A stretch of 40,291 nucleotides of DNA from a virus, in IMG/VR virus record IMGVR_UViG_3300009161_000101, positions 1 through 40,291 of that record. One strand, 5' to 3'. How positions within the stretch are numbered: position 1 is the first letter of the stretch; each line of letters begins with the position of its first letter. This document shows positions 21,282 to 37,949 of this stretch, in pieces. The notes below the pieces were generated by a model that ran no database searches, was not told the origin of the DNA, and was given only the letters and a program-made list of their open reading frames with translations. The position numbers and the translations under genes were made by a program.

Positions 21282-21506
21282 ATGACATACGAATTAACTA
21301 ATTTAGAAAAAATTGGAGTAATTGACCAAAGTCTTAAAGAAATTGAGTTTAATATTTATATTAATCAAATAAATATTATCTCTGCTCAAGCAGACCCAAG
21401 CAATACTTTACAAGATCTTGAGCCCTATAATGCCATATTGACAAGCCTTAATTTACAAAAATCAGCTCTTTTGGCTGAAAAGGCTAAGGTAAATGACATT
21501 GACTAA
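21282..21506 (+). CDS. Small coiled-coil protein A (74 aa)
   Basis: 74 residues starting after AAAGGAG. Almost entirely helical with a heptad-like pattern (ELTNLEKIGVIDQSLKEIEF). It is clearly related to the next gene: both begin M-T-x-x-L-T-N-x-E-K-x-x-V-I-x-Q and continue K-x-x-E-F-N, so the two arose by tandem duplication. Cysteine-free. No known function; candidates are a virion-associated or assembly protein given the structural genes on both sides. Confidence 0.7.
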   Translation: MTYELTNLEKIGVIDQSLKEIEFNIYINQINIISAQADPSNTLQDLEPYNAILTSLNLQKSALLAEKAKVNDID

Positions 21507-21526
21507 TATTATTAAAATGCTATAAT
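21499..21526 (+). promoter_or_regulatory. Promoter for coiled-coil protein B
   Basis: TTGACT (21499-21504), 16-nt spacer ending TGC, perfect TATAAT (21521-21526). It lies over the stop of coiled-coil protein A. Expected start near 21533, so the transcript opens within or just before AAGGAGG (21531-21537). Both the 16-nt spacing and TGC repeat in the promoter at 22740. Confidence 0.78.
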
Positions 21527-21542: not shown

Positions 21543-21761
21543 ATGACAATAACATTAACTAATGAAGAAAAGCTTACAGTAATATCGCAGCACATTAAAA
21601 ATTTAGAGTTTAACAAGTTTAATCTTGAAATGTCACTAGTAGAAGAAAATGCTAGGCTAGAACCTAAATCAGATGAAATTGCATCAATCAATACACAAAT
21701 TGATGATGTTGAAGCGAGAATAACAGCATTAACTACAGAATTAAATAAGCTTCCTAAATAA
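21543..21761 (+). CDS. Small coiled-coil protein B (72 aa), paralogue of A
   Basis: 72 residues with strong Shine-Dalgarno AAGGAGG and its own promoter. It shares the N-terminal signature of the 21282 protein (TxTLTNEEKLTVISQ, KNLEFN), then diverges into a charged helical region (SINTQIDDVEARITALTTEL). The duplication with separate promoter suggests it is needed in quantity, as for a structural or decoration component. No recognised domain. Confidence 0.72.
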   Translation: MTITLTNEEKLTVISQHIKNLEFNKFNLEMSLVEENARLEPKSDEIASINTQIDDVEARITALTTELNKLPK

Positions 21762-21956: not shown

Positions 21957-22302
21957 TTTTCCTTCAGGAATTGCAGTTAAAACTGATAAGGCAACTTATT
22001 GGATTAAAGATGAAAAGAGATATAAATTGATTTCAGACAGGGCTTCAAAATCTTGGTCATTTGCTACCGCAAATGCAACAGAAGAGGCCCTATCATTAAT
22101 CAAGATTGCAGGAAAACTTGGATTTAGAGACGGCTCTTTGATAAAGAATATAGCAGATGGTAAAATATATTTAATATCACAAAATAAAAAAAGGCATATT
22201 GTAGACCCAGATTCATTTACCAAGTACGGTTTAGATAGATCAAAAACTATAGAGGTAAGCGAAGCAGAATCAAATGCTCATGATTTAGGAGAAAATTTAT
22301 AA
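21889..22302 (+). CDS. Putative surface-binding domain protein
   Basis: 137 residues if started at ATG 21889 (132 from GTG 21904, after AGCAGGAA); the upstream in-frame region to 21841 is covered by coiled-coil gene C in another frame. The product carries two repeats of an aromatic-rich unit: residues about 31-75 (GIAVKTDKATYWIKDEKRYK) and about 78-125 (GSLIKNIADGKIYLISQNKK, then RHIVDPDSFTKYGLD). The second, 'YLI-x-x-x-x-K-R-H-I-x-x-P-x-x-F-x-x-x-G', is a repeat I know from secreted and phage proteins, often beside cell-wall enzymes, with unknown ligand. It ends in TAATG overlap with the next gene. Probably virion or envelope related; function inferred. Confidence 0.6.
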   Translation: MKSRNVKNLFKNTQTPLITSPTNFPSGIAVKTDKATYWIKDEKRYKLISDRASKSWSFATANATEEALSLIKIAGKLGFRDGSLIKNIADGKIYLISQNKKRHIVDPDSFTKYGLDRSKTIEVSEAESNAHDLGENL

Positions 22303-22736
22303 TGGCAGAAACATGGAAGTCCGTAGTATTCAATGAGGGTGCCCCACTAGATCCTAATGATTTAAATCAATTACAAACTAATTTAACAAACGTATTTAAC
22401 ACATCTAAGTCTTTATTAAATGCAACTAAAGATGCCTCTGGCACAAATAGAGTTGCAATTATTGACTCAAATGTAGAAACAATTCCATTAAGTGGAAAAG
22501 CAAACATAGCCTCTTCAGCGTATCCAGTAACATTTAGTTCTTCATTTAATTCTGGAACCGAAATATCATTTACGGCCTCTGTAGGAGACGTACCCTTATC
22601 GGGAGCTGGAGTCATATCTGTCGCAGCCGTTGTAACACCTGGAACTCTAAGCGGCAAGATATATGTTACAACTAGTTTAGCAAAGGCTGGTTCAGTTAAA
22701 GTGAACTGGATTGCAGCCCAATTAAAAGACATTTAA
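22302..22736 (+). CDS. Hypothetical virion-like protein (144 aa)
   Basis: 144 residues, TAATG overlap with the preceding gene. The N-terminal part (VVFNEGAPLDPNDLNQLQTN) is a helix-plus-loop motif that is common in fibre and virion proteins ('LDPNDLNQLQ'), then a Ser/Thr/Val-rich beta region (TFSSSFNSGTEISFTASV; VISVAAVVTPGTLSGKIYVT). Composition is like a tail or head fibre. It is the last gene before a terminator and thus ends the structural region. I do not recognise a family. Confidence 0.6.
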   Translation: MAETWKSVVFNEGAPLDPNDLNQLQTNLTNVFNTSKSLLNATKDASGTNRVAIIDSNVETIPLSGKANIASSAYPVTFSSSFNSGTEISFTASVGDVPLSGAGVISVAAVVTPGTLSGKIYVTTSLAKAGSVKVNWIAAQLKDI

Positions 22737-22739
22737 TAC

Positions 22740-22767
22740 TTGACGATATTTAACAATATGCTACAAT
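22740..22767 (+). promoter_or_regulatory. Promoter followed at once by a terminator
   Basis: TTGACG (22740-22745), 16-nt spacer ending TGC, TACAAT (22762-22767), the same spacing and extended -10 element as the promoter at 21499. Expected start near 22774, only about 8 nt before the terminator hairpin at 22782, so most transcripts would be about 33 nt unless the terminator is overridden. Confidence 0.72.
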
Positions 22768-22781
22768 TCCATGTAGTATGC

Positions 22782-22808
22782 AAAGTCACGAAACCGTGAC
22801 TTTTTTAA
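22782..22808 (+). terminator. Intrinsic terminator at the structural/replication junction
   Basis: 9-bp perfect stem AAAGTCACG (22782-22790) / CGTGACTTT (22795-22803), 4-nt loop AAAC, then TTTAATT. It ends the structural operon and sits between the promoter at 22740 and the metallophosphoesterase gene, so it could act as an attenuator for that gene. Confidence 0.88.
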
Positions 22809-22823
22809 TTTAAGGAACAAAGA

Positions 22824-23639
22824 ATGTCAAATGATTTAAAATGGATGCTCTCATCAGATCAGCAATTTCCGTACCAAGATGATAAAATGATTGAGCTTTG
22901 GTTTAAAGTAATGAAATGGTTTAAGCCAGACGTTGTAGACTACCTAGGCGATACAGACGATCAGGCATGCTACAGCAAGTATACTGACGGTAAACCAACA
23001 GAATTTTTAAAGGCATACAAGAACGATGATGTAACTAATGACTTAGAGTTAATGCTAAAAGATATGAAGATTGAAGCAAGCGGTGCTAGAGAATTTTATG
23101 CTAGGACAAGAAAAATGCTTCCGAAGGCTCAACTGTTTTCTGCTCTAGGAAATCACGATATAAGAATATTTGATTACCTAGATAAAAAGATTCCAGAGTA
23201 TGCAAAGCACGTAACCCCAGAAGCTTTATGGAGTTTAGATTCTTTAGGATACGATTATATATATTATGATAGTTTGCCTAAGAAGCGATTTGGAGATATC
23301 CATGTTCACCACGGACTTTCAATATCAGCAACTGGGGCAGTAAGAAAAGATATGGAAGACATGCAGGTTTCATTAATCAGAGGTCATTCCCATAGAATTG
23401 CTTCTCATATGGTAACTTACGAACTTAGAAATAATGGAAAAGGCGAAACTCTTAGAGGATATGAAATTGGTCACATGTGTGACGAAAAAGGTCCAGGAAT
23501 GAAATACACTCAGCATCATGATTGGCAAAAGGGATTTGCTATAGCACATATTGAAAATGGAAAATACCCACACGTACAAATGATACATGTATCTCCAAAC
23601 TATACATGCGTAGTTGATGGAAAGATGTTTGCCTTATAA
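22824..23639 (+). CDS. Calcineurin-like metallophosphoesterase
   Basis: 271 residues with all metal-site motifs of the family in order: SSDQQ (residues 10-14, D12, in place of the usual DxH), GDTDD (42-46), GNHD (109-112), VHHG (161-164) and GHSHR (187-191). Such enzymes hydrolyse phosphodiesters or phosphomonoesters with two metal ions; phage members have varied substrates (nucleic acid ends, nucleotides). The DxQ instead of DxH at the first motif is a variant that occurs in DNA-repair-like members. Shine-Dalgarno AAGGAAC precedes the start. It opens the early region and overlaps the next gene (TAATG). The cellular target is not known. Confidence 0.85.
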   Translation: MSNDLKWMLSSDQQFPYQDDKMIELWFKVMKWFKPDVVDYLGDTDDQACYSKYTDGKPTEFLKAYKNDDVTNDLELMLKDMKIEASGAREFYARTRKMLPKAQLFSALGNHDIRIFDYLDKKIPEYAKHVTPEALWSLDSLGYDYIYYDSLPKKRFGDIHVHHGLSISATGAVRKDMEDMQVSLIRGHSHRIASHMVTYELRNNGKGETLRGYEIGHMCDEKGPGMKYTQHHDWQKGFAIAHIENGKYPHVQMIHVSPNYTCVVDGKMFAL

Positions 23640-23824
23640 TGTGGTGTCAAAAATGTAAAGGAAGAGTTTTTGTAGATAGAGTGTTTTCTCAAAAACTTCA
23701 CATAGAACTTTTTTGCATTCTTTGTGGAAAAAGATGGATGATTAACAAAGAGACGAATAGGTTTGGTAAATGGTTAGAAAAAAAAGATCAGGCATACGCA
23801 AAAAGTTCCTCTATTTCTTCTTAA
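23639..23824 (+). CDS. Small zinc-ribbon protein (61 aa)
   Basis: 61 residues with two C-x2-C pairs (WCQKCKGRVF and LFCILCGKRW), spaced about 23 residues apart, a classic zinc-ribbon. The rest is basic (FGKWLEKKDQAY). TAATG overlap with the metallophosphoesterase gene. It could bind nucleic acid or act on host RNA polymerase; nothing in the sequence settles it. Confidence 0.72.
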   Translation: MWCQKCKGRVFVDRVFSQKLHIELFCILCGKRWMINKETNRFGKWLEKKDQAYAKSSSISS

Positions 23825-24249
23825 ACGATAAATTACATAAAGTAATTAGATCGTCTAGGGCGAAAGACGAACTAGTAGCATGGTCATACCTAGATAAAAA
23901 AAGAGTCCTGTATTCATTTTCAGATGTACAAAAGAATATGGAAACAGCATATACAATGAAACAAGCTGGACAAATATTGGGCAGGCACAAAGTTACAATT
24001 GAAGAGTATATACTTCAAGGTAAAATAAGCAAACCTCAGAAAGTATACCCAATAAGTAATCCAGATAGCAGATGGTATAAATTTATGTTTAGTGAATCTA
24101 GTATACTTAAAATACACGAGTATATACTTGAGGCTGGATATTCTAAAAATTTACCCTCAAAGGCAGAATTACAGGCCCTTCTCAAACACAACATGATATT
24201 GTATACTAAGACCGTTGATGGTTTTGTGCCAGTATGGAAGGCGGAGTAA
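23770..24249 (+). CDS. Excisionase/MerR-like DNA-binding protein
   Basis: 159 residues. The central part (residues about 57-100) reads as a winged-helix or MerR/excisionase type: TAYTMKQAGQILGRHKVTIE, then EYILQGKISKPQKVYP and the wing-like RWYKFMFSESSILKIHEYIL. The N-terminal 30 residues are very basic (MVRKKRSGIRKKF). It overlaps the preceding zinc-ribbon gene by 55 nt; no better in-frame start lies further on before residue 57. Since no integrase is present in the window, it is more likely a regulator of early genes than a lysogeny excisionase. The stop overlaps the next gene (TAATG). Confidence 0.65.
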   Translation: MVRKKRSGIRKKFLYFFLNDKLHKVIRSSRAKDELVAWSYLDKKRVLYSFSDVQKNMETAYTMKQAGQILGRHKVTIEEYILQGKISKPQKVYPISNPDSRWYKFMFSESSILKIHEYILEAGYSKNLPSKAELQALLKHNMILYTKTVDGFVPVWKAE

Positions 24250-28061: not shown

Positions 28062-28074
28062 ATTAAATAGACTC

Positions 28075-28104
28075 AGGGGTGGCTATTGCCACCCCTAGTT
28101 TTAT
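28075..28104 (+). terminator. Intrinsic terminator after the SSB gene
   Basis: 9-bp perfect stem AGGGGTGGC (28075-28083) / GCCACCCCT (28088-28096) with 4-nt loop TATT, followed by AGTTTTATTT. It insulates the SSB unit. The right arm overlaps the -35 of the next promoter. Confidence 0.92.
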
Positions 28105-36515: not shown

Positions 36516-36658
36516 AGTTGTATCAAAGCCATCCTTGGCTATATAGAAGATACATTGTACAAAAAAAGACAGTTACAGAAATTGCTATAGAATGTGCAGT
36601 TTCTCCAATGACAATACAAAGATACCTTGATCAGTTTGGATTAATTAAAAAACGATGA
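36512..36658 (+). CDS. Helix-turn-helix micro-protein (48 aa)
   Basis: Small gene with ATGA overlaps at both ends (with the RuvC-like gene and the glycosyltransferase). Product of 48 residues: HPWLYRRYIVQKKTVTEIAI, then ECAVSPMTIQRYLDQFGLIK. 'TVTEIAIECAVSPMTIQRYL' is a resolvase/Hin-like helix-turn-helix, of the sort found at the N-terminus of homing endonucleases and small regulators. A free-standing domain of this size could regulate the cassette or be a remnant of a larger gene. The architecture argues it is functional. Confidence 0.72.
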   Translation: MKLYQSHPWLYRRYIVQKKTVTEIAIECAVSPMTIQRYLDQFGLIKKR

Positions 36659-37299
36659 GCATACCAGTACTAATAGTTCCAATATTAAATAGATATGATC
36701 TACTAGACTCTATGCTAGAATCAATTAATTATCCAGTTGACAATATATTAATTATAGACAATGGTGGAGAATTTAAAACACAAAAAGAAAATGTTAAAGT
36801 TCTTAGTATGCCAGCAAATTTAGGACTGTCTGCTGCGTGGAACCTGGGCATAAAATGTTACCCTGATTCTAAATACTGGCTATTTGCCTCTGCAGACACT
36901 ACTTGGGGAGAAACAGCCTTGCAAGAAATAGATACTCTTAGCGGACCAAGCAAGCTAATACTTACAAACGATGCTTACGGATGCTTTTCTGTTGGTGAAA
37001 ATGTAATAGAGCAAGTAGGATTGTTTGATGAATACTTCTATCCTATTTATTTTGAAGACAACGATTTTCATGAAAGAGTTGCAAGATTTTGTCCTGAAAA
37101 CACAATAACTTCAACATCGATACAGACCGCACCAGAATCTGGAAGTCAAACAATTAATAGCGATGATAAACTTAAAAATAGAAACCATGAAACATTTTTG
37201 AATAACCAAGAATATTATGAGTATAAAAGGAATGGTAACTTTGAAAATCCAAAGCCTTGGTCGTTATCTAGAAGAAGGGAACAGGAATGGCTACGATAG
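36655..37299 (+). CDS. Family 2-type glycosyltransferase
   Basis: 214 residues. GT-A fold motifs: VLIVPILNRYDLLDSMLESI at the start, then IDNGG, PANLGLSAAWNLGI (N-L-G-x-x-x-A-x-N, typical of GT2), SAD (79-81) as the metal-binding DxD equivalent, and FEDNDFHER (E134/D135) for the catalytic acid region. Transfers a sugar from a nucleotide sugar to an acceptor, which may be DNA base, capsid protein or glycan. It overlaps the following nucleotidyltransferase by 13 nt, so donor and transfer steps are probably linked. Confidence 0.85.
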   Translation: MSIPVLIVPILNRYDLLDSMLESINYPVDNILIIDNGGEFKTQKENVKVLSMPANLGLSAAWNLGIKCYPDSKYWLFASADTTWGETALQEIDTLSGPSKLILTNDAYGCFSVGENVIEQVGLFDEYFYPIYFEDNDFHERVARFCPENTITSTSIQTAPESGSQTINSDDKLKNRNHETFLNNQEYYEYKRNGNFENPKPWSLSRRREQEWLR

Positions 37300-37949
37300 G
37301 AGTACTGCCAGCTTCAGGTAAAGCATCTAGAATTGGAGGAATTCCTAAATTTTGTTTGCCAATATCAGATGAAAGATCATTACTTCAATGGCATGTAGAA
37401 CAAATGCTAGAGTTATGCGATGAGGTTAGAATTTCTACACGATCAGAATGGGTTCCTATTATTCAAAATATGGACATGAATGTTAAAATAATGGTTCGTG
37501 AGCCTTCAACAATGTCAGACGCAGTCAAGTATATGGTCGGAAATTACAACGACACAGTTCTTGTAGGTATGCCAGATACGTTTATTTTAAATGCTCCAGG
37601 TAATATATATAAAGGATTATTTAAAGAAAACACTGCAGATCTTGTTTTGGGAATCTGGGAATGTGTAGAGGGTTTAAAAGGTCGTGTTGGGCAAGTACTG
37701 GTTTCTAATAATAAAGTTGTTGATTCAGAAGATAAAGTAGATAATTGTAATTATTTAGACATGTGGGGCACTATGCTATTTCAGAATAATATGATAAGAT
37801 TCATAGATCCTAAGCTAGACCATCCAGGGAAACAATTAAAAGATTGGATATCTCAAGGATTTAATATTAGGGCGGAAAGACCAGGTGGACAATATATGGA
37901 TATTGGAACATTAAGAGGACTTAAACAATTATATAAGGAGATGGAATGA
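37287..37949 (+). CDS. Sugar-phosphate nucleotidyltransferase
   Basis: 220 residues. Nucleotide-binding loop VLPASGKASRIGGIPKFCLP (G-x3-R-x-GG-x-PK, residues 7-26), metal Asp D97 (VGMPDTF), and C-terminal MDIGTLRGLKQLYKE, as in glucose-1-phosphate thymidylyl-type enzymes. Makes an NDP-sugar, the donor for the preceding glycosyltransferase. The ATGA overlap joins it to the next gene. Shorter than bacterial RmlA (about 290), as in other phage versions. Confidence 0.85.
   Translation: MATIGVLPASGKASRIGGIPKFCLPISDERSLLQWHVEQMLELCDEVRISTRSEWVPIIQNMDMNVKIMVREPSTMSDAVKYMVGNYNDTVLVGMPDTFILNAPGNIYKGLFKENTADLVLGIWECVEGLKGRVGQVLVSNNKVVDSEDKVDNCNYLDMWGTMLFQNNMIRFIDPKLDHPGKQLKDWISQGFNIRAERPGGQYMDIGTLRGLKQLYKEME

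Follow-up and report, generated by a model that had tools for sequence, protein, structure and literature searches.

Genes and features at the locus

The window, i.e., the whole stretch of DNA that was analyzed, is a virus record of 40,291 bases. At the border between its structural and replication genes, a promoter is followed almost at once by an intrinsic terminator, and the next gene, which opens the replication block, encodes a metallophosphoesterase (MPE) (Table 1). Genes for a DnaB-like helicase, a DNA primase, a single-strand binding protein, a UvsX-like recombinase, and a Holliday junction resolvase are found 3' of the MPE gene. A mycobacteriophage member of this MPE family is described as an early gene on which replication of the phage DNA depends in one host (PMC12287305). 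The nearest named relatives of the MPE belong to Rhodococcus and Streptomyces phages and the more distant ones mostly to Mycobacterium phages, and the host is therefore likely actinobacterial; freshwater Nanopelagicales as the host is only a guess.

Table 1. Features of the promoter-terminator element and its flanking genes (window coordinates)
Feature	Position	Strand	Basis
Last gene before the element, stop 3 nt ahead of the -35	22302..22736	+	Gene list
-35 element TTGACG	22740..22745	+	Sequence and promoter scan
Extended -10 element TATGCTACAAT (hexamer TACAAT 22762-22767, TG 22759-22760)	22757..22767	+	Sequence and promoter scan
Hairpin 1, arms 22757-22765 / 22772-22780, overlapping -10 and +1	22757..22780	+	Fold, covariation
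Inferred transcription start region	22773..22775	+	Usual -10 to +1 distance
-10-like hexamer TAGTAT, about -1 to +5, candidate sigma-dependent pause element	22774..22779	+	TAnnnT offset, AlpA-like position
Intrinsic terminator, stem 22782-22790 / 22795-22803, loop AAAC, T-run 22801-22806	22782..22806	+	Sequence, scan, fold
Likely ribosome binding site AAGGA of the MPE gene, 3' of the terminator	22812..22816	+	By eye
MPE, PHROG 221, first gene of the replication block, putatively gated by the element	22824..23639	+	ATG at 22824

Several other features of the window were recorded. Two adjoining small open reading frames (21282-21506 and 21543-21761) have similar 5' ends that share a 45-nt repeat (73% identical), with a strong extended -10 promoter-like site between them (21499-21526). 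A strong bidirectional hairpin terminator of 9 to 10 bp with seven G-C pairs (28074-28097) follows the single-strand binding protein gene, and a promoter-like site at 28086 overlaps it. Adjoining glycosyltransferase-like and nucleotidyltransferase-like genes (36655-37949; Pfam PF00535 and PF12804) are perhaps involved in DNA or surface modification.

A strong promoter directed into a terminator

The first-pass annotation had described a TTGACG-N16-TACAAT promoter with an extended -10 at 22740-22767 and a 9-bp terminator stem starting at 22782. The sequence and the scan agree with both, including the 16-nt spacer, and the fold agrees with the stem. The promoter scored 10/12 with the TG in the scan of the window. 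The terminator hairpin, AAAGTCACG-AAAC-CGTGACTTT (22782-22803, 9 bp), runs into six T residues; about 10 bases separate the promoter from this stop signal, and 20 bases separate the end of the hairpin from the MPE gene. Judging from the usual -10 to +1 distance, the resulting RNA would be about 33 nt long, and the predicted transcript folds into the terminator hairpin alone (-11.2 kcal/mol, z = -4.3).

Neither half of this arrangement is unusual by count when taken by itself. The window has 15 terminator-like sites, including the hairpin at 22782 (8.3 expected), 80 promoter-like sites (85.8 expected), and 6 occurrences of TATGNTANANT (4.85 expected). A single site in the window combined a promoter with a promoter-proximal hairpin and T-run, and none of 100 dinucleotide shuffles of the window produced such a combination.

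The earlier statement that the MPE gene has no other visible promoter held in part. The scan of the window also recovered the extended -10 site at 21499-21526, but such upstream sites were present in just 25 of the 94 loci with 2.5 kb of upstream sequence, so the promoter at 22740 is the sole conserved one seen.

Some other identities for the element were considered and set aside. The window had no match in Rfam 15 at the gathering score, and no known RNA family or tRNA was found in it. There is no turn in GC skew at 22.7 kb, which argues against a replication origin there. A mimic of a host terminator was rejected as well, the five matches to the hairpin pattern in genome contigs coming from unrelated bacteria and being taken as chance.

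Occurrence in uncultured relatives and cultured phages

A protein search of viral contigs with the MPE returned 572 relatives, of which the best 80, and hence the nearest ones, were kept (L002 to L081). All frequencies given here were taken from these loci only; the rows of a separate pattern scan carry the promoter-hairpin pair by construction. Looking for the same pair in relatives was a check proposed in the first-pass annotation, and the outcome was positive: among these best 80 of 572, the pair stood directly before the MPE gene in 69 loci, and in 60 it was accompanied by a T-run of at least 5 nt. The 11 loci counted as lacking the pair were L025, L034, L038, L040 to L045, L070, and L073, although the contig of L073 begins inside the element and does show the hairpin and T-run. 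In L070, the promoter still stands at the structural border, but a gene has been inserted between it and the MPE gene, and the hairpin there has no T-run; the inserted region (L070:5250-6011) holds an open reading frame of 238 amino acids that appears oxygenase-like by eye. Nine of the 80 loci have a hairpin without a T-run. Six of these (L013, L014, L016 to L018, and L028) form a lineage that kept the promoter and carries a wholly different hairpin of 10 to 11 bp, and the other three (L021, L022, and L031) have both a different promoter and a different hairpin.

The gene-blind pattern scan recovered at least 119 stretches. Among the 80 that were listed, 77 preceded an MPE start (75 with the MPE gene directly downstream and 2 ending at its start), and 3 were chance matches. 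The stem pattern GTCACG-N4-CGTGAC occurred as one copy in 15 of 18 large records and was absent from the other 3. Similarly, in 17 of 20 records a covariance model gave a single strong match; the exceptions were the record of L070 (G020), with a weak match (E = 0.0097), and the records of L031 and L038, with none, and the remaining matches were weak or fell on the opposite strand of the same place. The recurrence of the pair at one position in many uncultured relatives suggests a built-in gate and not an accident. The sequence comparison also indicates that the gate is not essential, since nine of the 80 loci do without the T-run and L038 and L040 to L045 do without the pair.

Among cultured phages, the pair was absent from four Rhodococcus phages with 56 to 59% MPE identity (Peregrin, Trina, Weasels2, and NiceHouse) and from PhailMary, Dreamboat, and KatherineG, and a nucleotide search of the phage collection with the element gave no match. 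The Streptomyces phages Comrade and Annadreamy (Stanwilliamsviridae) have a comparable layout, with a TTGACA-N17 promoter and then a hairpin of 12 to 13 bp before the MPE gene, but the sequence differs from that of the element, and the hairpin is followed by CCTTTT in Comrade and by no T-run in Annadreamy. A hairpin at this place was absent from seven of the nine Streptomyces phages examined. TTGACA-N17-TANNNT promoter-like sites stand directly before the MPE gene in Comrade, Annadreamy, Wofford, Yaboi, and EGole (L218 and L221 to L224), as located by script in three of them and by eye in Yaboi and EGole. No description of the element was among the matches listed in our literature searches, and we make no claim that it is absent from print.

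Constraint on sequence and shape

To describe the shape of the element, as distinct from its frequency, we pooled the MPE-fetched and pattern-fetched sets into 126 distinct elements. The spacer is 16 nt long in 124 of them, and the -35 reads TTGACA in 121 and TTGACG, as in the window, in 5. A hairpin is present in 125 of the 126. Of these 125, 121 have a 4-nt loop, 122 have a T-run of 5 nt or more, and 120 have a stem that begins 11 to 14 nt after the -10. In 100 of 124 loci, the upstream stop codon lies 1 to 6 nt ahead of TTGAC.

Pairwise identities were calculated for 60 rows sampled from the 131 distinct ones, with the stem parsed in 57. Identity was 98.4% for the -35 and 98.8% for the left stem arm, compared with 55% for the loop, 49.5% for the -35/-10 spacer, and 57% for third codon positions of the MPE gene. 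The value for the right stem arm (88.1%) was lowered by six rows that were parsed out of register. One-sided changes in the stem core are of the wobble type and lie in the 3' arm (CGTGGC in six distinct rows). By these comparisons, the sequence of the terminator stem is under constraint as tight as that on the promoter, more than would be needed for termination alone.

A second hairpin and a -10-like hexamer

Two features go beyond the first-pass annotation, namely a covarying second hairpin and a -10-like hexamer at about -1 to +5. The second hairpin (hairpin 1) overlaps the -10 element and the start site and has a predicted fold of -8.2 kcal/mol (z = -4.05). It has at least six pairs in 99 of 125 elements, compared with 10.9 when the right-hand segment was shuffled and 88.8 when the right-hand segments were dealt among the rows (largest value, 96 in 200 trials), and it is absent from 20 of the 125 distinct rows. 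Its arm spacing varies, with a loop of mostly 3 to 5 nt. GTTAC in one arm pairs with GTAAC (rarely GTAGC) in the other, and GCTAC, where the stem is kept, pairs with GTAGC or GTAGT. In an alignment of 25 rows hand-picked from the locus listing, five pairs across both helices were changed on both sides, and 14 such cells were counted versus 2.9 expected (0 of 500 shuffles, a control that ignores relatedness). On the MPE tree, the Y/R sites of hairpin 1 shared 7 changed branches versus 1.1 expected. Other columns of the element also co-changed above expectation, so the exchange of whole blocks may contribute to the co-change.

At the core Y-R pair of hairpin 1, the one-sided variants that keep the stem were read by eye as U.G. 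Allowing A.C instead of G.U makes hairpin 1 longer on average (7.32 versus 6.62 pairs), chiefly through A.C at the loop end; the comparison of whole stems is therefore uninformative about the strand, and the core pair alone is informative. Hairpin 1 has its left arm upstream of the start site and could therefore be present in RNA only when a polymerase reads in from the structural genes. The first-pass annotation had seen no alternative pairing that could form an antiterminator. It missed this hairpin, but the minimum-energy folds (stretches of two sequences, all ending before the MPE gene) keep hairpin 1 and the terminator together. Because in these stretches it folds alongside the terminator and does not disrupt it, hairpin 1 is probably not a classical antiterminator.

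The -10-like hexamer follows a TAnnnT pattern. Of 125 distinct elements, 96 have this pattern at 5 to 7 nt beyond the -10, compared with 13.3 in shuffled segments, and these include 15 of the 20 elements without hairpin 1. The promoter and terminator motifs, their spacing, the hexamer, the strong conservation, and the single copy per genome are features that can be read from the sequences themselves.

A proposed attenuator at the entrance to the replication operon

The first-pass annotation had offered two readings of the pair at the structural/replication border, an attenuator or a small RNA. The conservation of both halves and of their spacing argues strongly for the attenuator, and the variability of the 5' tail and the loop, where a target could be paired, weakens the small RNA. 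That the element is a promoter-proximal attenuator appears to be well supported by these comparisons, and the candidate opening step is a separate matter. The explanation that we favor, tentatively and with somewhat less than even confidence, is that this attenuator stands at the entrance to the replication operon and is opened, most likely, by promoter-loaded antitermination like that of Q or AlpA. In such a mechanism, a strong sigma-A type promoter would start RNA polymerase just after the last structural gene, and the intrinsic terminator within about 30 nt would end most transcripts as the tiny RNA. Entry into the MPE and replication genes would require a polymerase made termination resistant at or near the promoter. 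Sigma at the hexamer would make the polymerase pause near +15, when the terminator hairpin has yet to emerge, and it is in a window of this kind that the antiterminators lambda Q, 21Q, and AlpA load. We infer promoter use, termination, the pause, and a phage or host antiterminator acting at the element. Several results count against this explanation: the near-invariant stem is not explained by termination alone; the -35/-10 spacer, where Q and AlpA bind, shows no greater conservation than MPE third codon positions, so that no shared binding element is seen; no antiterminator gene was identified; and some relatives lack the T-run or the pair.

Hairpin 1 finds an explanation if the element is unregulated operon punctuation that works as a one-way valve, a reading that we consider rather unlikely overall. 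The terminator would mainly stop polymerases arriving from the late operon, hairpin 1 would be part of the read-in transcript in tandem with the terminator hairpin, and the promoter would feed the replication operon through leaky or intrinsically resistant readthrough. The upstream structural stop just a few nucleotides ahead of the -35, the covariation of both hairpins, and the U.G variants at the core pair of hairpin 1, which fit a plus-strand RNA transcribed through the promoter, are all consistent with such a valve, as is the lack of a conserved antiterminator binding site in the spacer; hairpin 1 is accounted for and no protein is needed. However, a terminator placed ahead of the promoter would serve without penalty, and the reverse order is seen in 60 of the 80 MPE-fetched loci. 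The valve also leaves the -10-like hexamer unexplained, and 20 of the 125 distinct rows lack hairpin 1. A protein-free directional gate, which we regard as improbable, would give the hexamer a role: sigma at the hexamer would keep the promoter-started polymerase termination resistant and so let it pass, and hairpin 1 together with the terminator would stop the read-in polymerase. If so, one 65-nt module would keep late and replication transcription apart, and neither a repressor nor an antiterminator would be needed.

We attach a similarly low probability to a protective or tuning role of the hairpin in the 5' leader of the replication mRNA, with the T-run being secondary. Hairpins of 9 to 11 bp kept without a T-run in the nine loci described above, and the hairpin at this place in the distant phages Annadreamy and Comrade, are what a leader hairpin would predict, and a hairpin of at least 8 bp was found at other promoter-like sites of the relatives in just 10 of 160 cases. 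A stabilizer, though, needs no T-run and should lose expression by having one, and yet 122 of the 125 distinct elements keep a T-run of at least 5 nt.

The tiny RNA may itself be the product, as a small regulatory RNA or a protein-binding decoy, but we judge this to be still more doubtful. The nearly invariant stem and its single copy in most large records speak for such an RNA. Against it, the lineages without a T-run would make none, and the parts that usually pair with targets, i.e., the single-stranded 5' tail and the loop, are the variable parts. No conserved single-stranded seed for a trans-acting small RNA was found, the stem alone being fixed, and a small RNA with a seed was therefore dropped as the main reading.

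Least likely of the rivals, and very improbable in our estimation, is that the inverted repeats (GTCACG-N4-CGTGAC and/or TGYTACA-N-TGTARCA) are DNA operators for a phage repressor such as a MerR-like protein, because, despite nearly fixed half-sites with 4-nt spacing and a MerR-like winged-helix protein at every locus with room downstream, the arm spacing of the first repeat varies, the one-sided changes in the terminator stem are of the wobble type in the 3' arm, as RNA pairing predicts, and the variants of the protein helix and of the operator do not match up cleanly.

This MerR-like winged-helix protein is encoded two genes after the MPE gene (23770-24249), and its gene is present in 160 of 160 loci with room downstream. 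Its structural model (mean pLDDT, 81.4) aligned best with MerR-type winged helices (Z = 8.7 over 57 residues; rmsd, 1.4) and had no Foldseek match below an E value of 0.001; no Q or AlpA chain was among the structural matches listed, which excludes neither. Since there is no clean correspondence between its helix and the element variants, the protein was rejected as the partner of the element; it is a possible regulator of the replication operon, a lead only. It is the one conserved DNA-binding candidate near the element and the one nearby candidate that was modeled, and no antiterminator gene was identified at this scope.

Comparison with promoter-proximal antitermination systems

Returning to the attenuator with promoter-loaded antitermination, the closest known systems are those of lambda and 21 Q (PR'-tR') and AlpA (PalpB-tB). 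In the published accounts of Q and AlpA, sigma engaged at a -10-like sequence pauses the polymerase, after which the antiterminator loads and transcription continues past the terminator; AlpA requires a -10-like hexamer at -1 to +5 with the terminator downstream, and 21Q likewise uses a -10-like sequence (PMC6606751, PMC9371919, PMC7969949). The same accounts describe proteins that bind DNA between the -35 and the -10, place the start of the AlpA terminator tB 54 nt from the start site, and treat promoter-proximal antitermination in coliphages and a Pseudomonas operon. The element resembles these systems in having an apparent strong sigma-70 type promoter ahead of the controlled operon, an intrinsic terminator between promoter and first gene, as seen in the sequence and fold, and a -10-like hexamer in the first transcribed bases, at which pausing is predicted. 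It differs from them as they are described in that no conserved binding element is seen in its -35/-10 spacer, where sites may be phage specific, and no antiterminator was found for it. Its stem starts at about +8, in contrast to tB, and it stands before replication genes, unlike the late and lysis genes of the Q and AlpA systems. Because the spacer is not conserved and no antiterminator was found, we do not file the element as a member of this group, but by analogy it may work in a similar way.

The short leader with a hairpin, the constrained stem, and the position before an operon also recall leader attenuators and LoaP-type RNA-hairpin antitermination. Overall, the strong conservation of this 65-nt module, and its fixed place in many uncultured relatives, suggest that these phages share a control step for switching on their replication genes. 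If it is opened by antitermination, the promoter-proximal mechanism would extend to phages that probably infect Actinobacteria; the element may instead offer a protein-free alternative to it.
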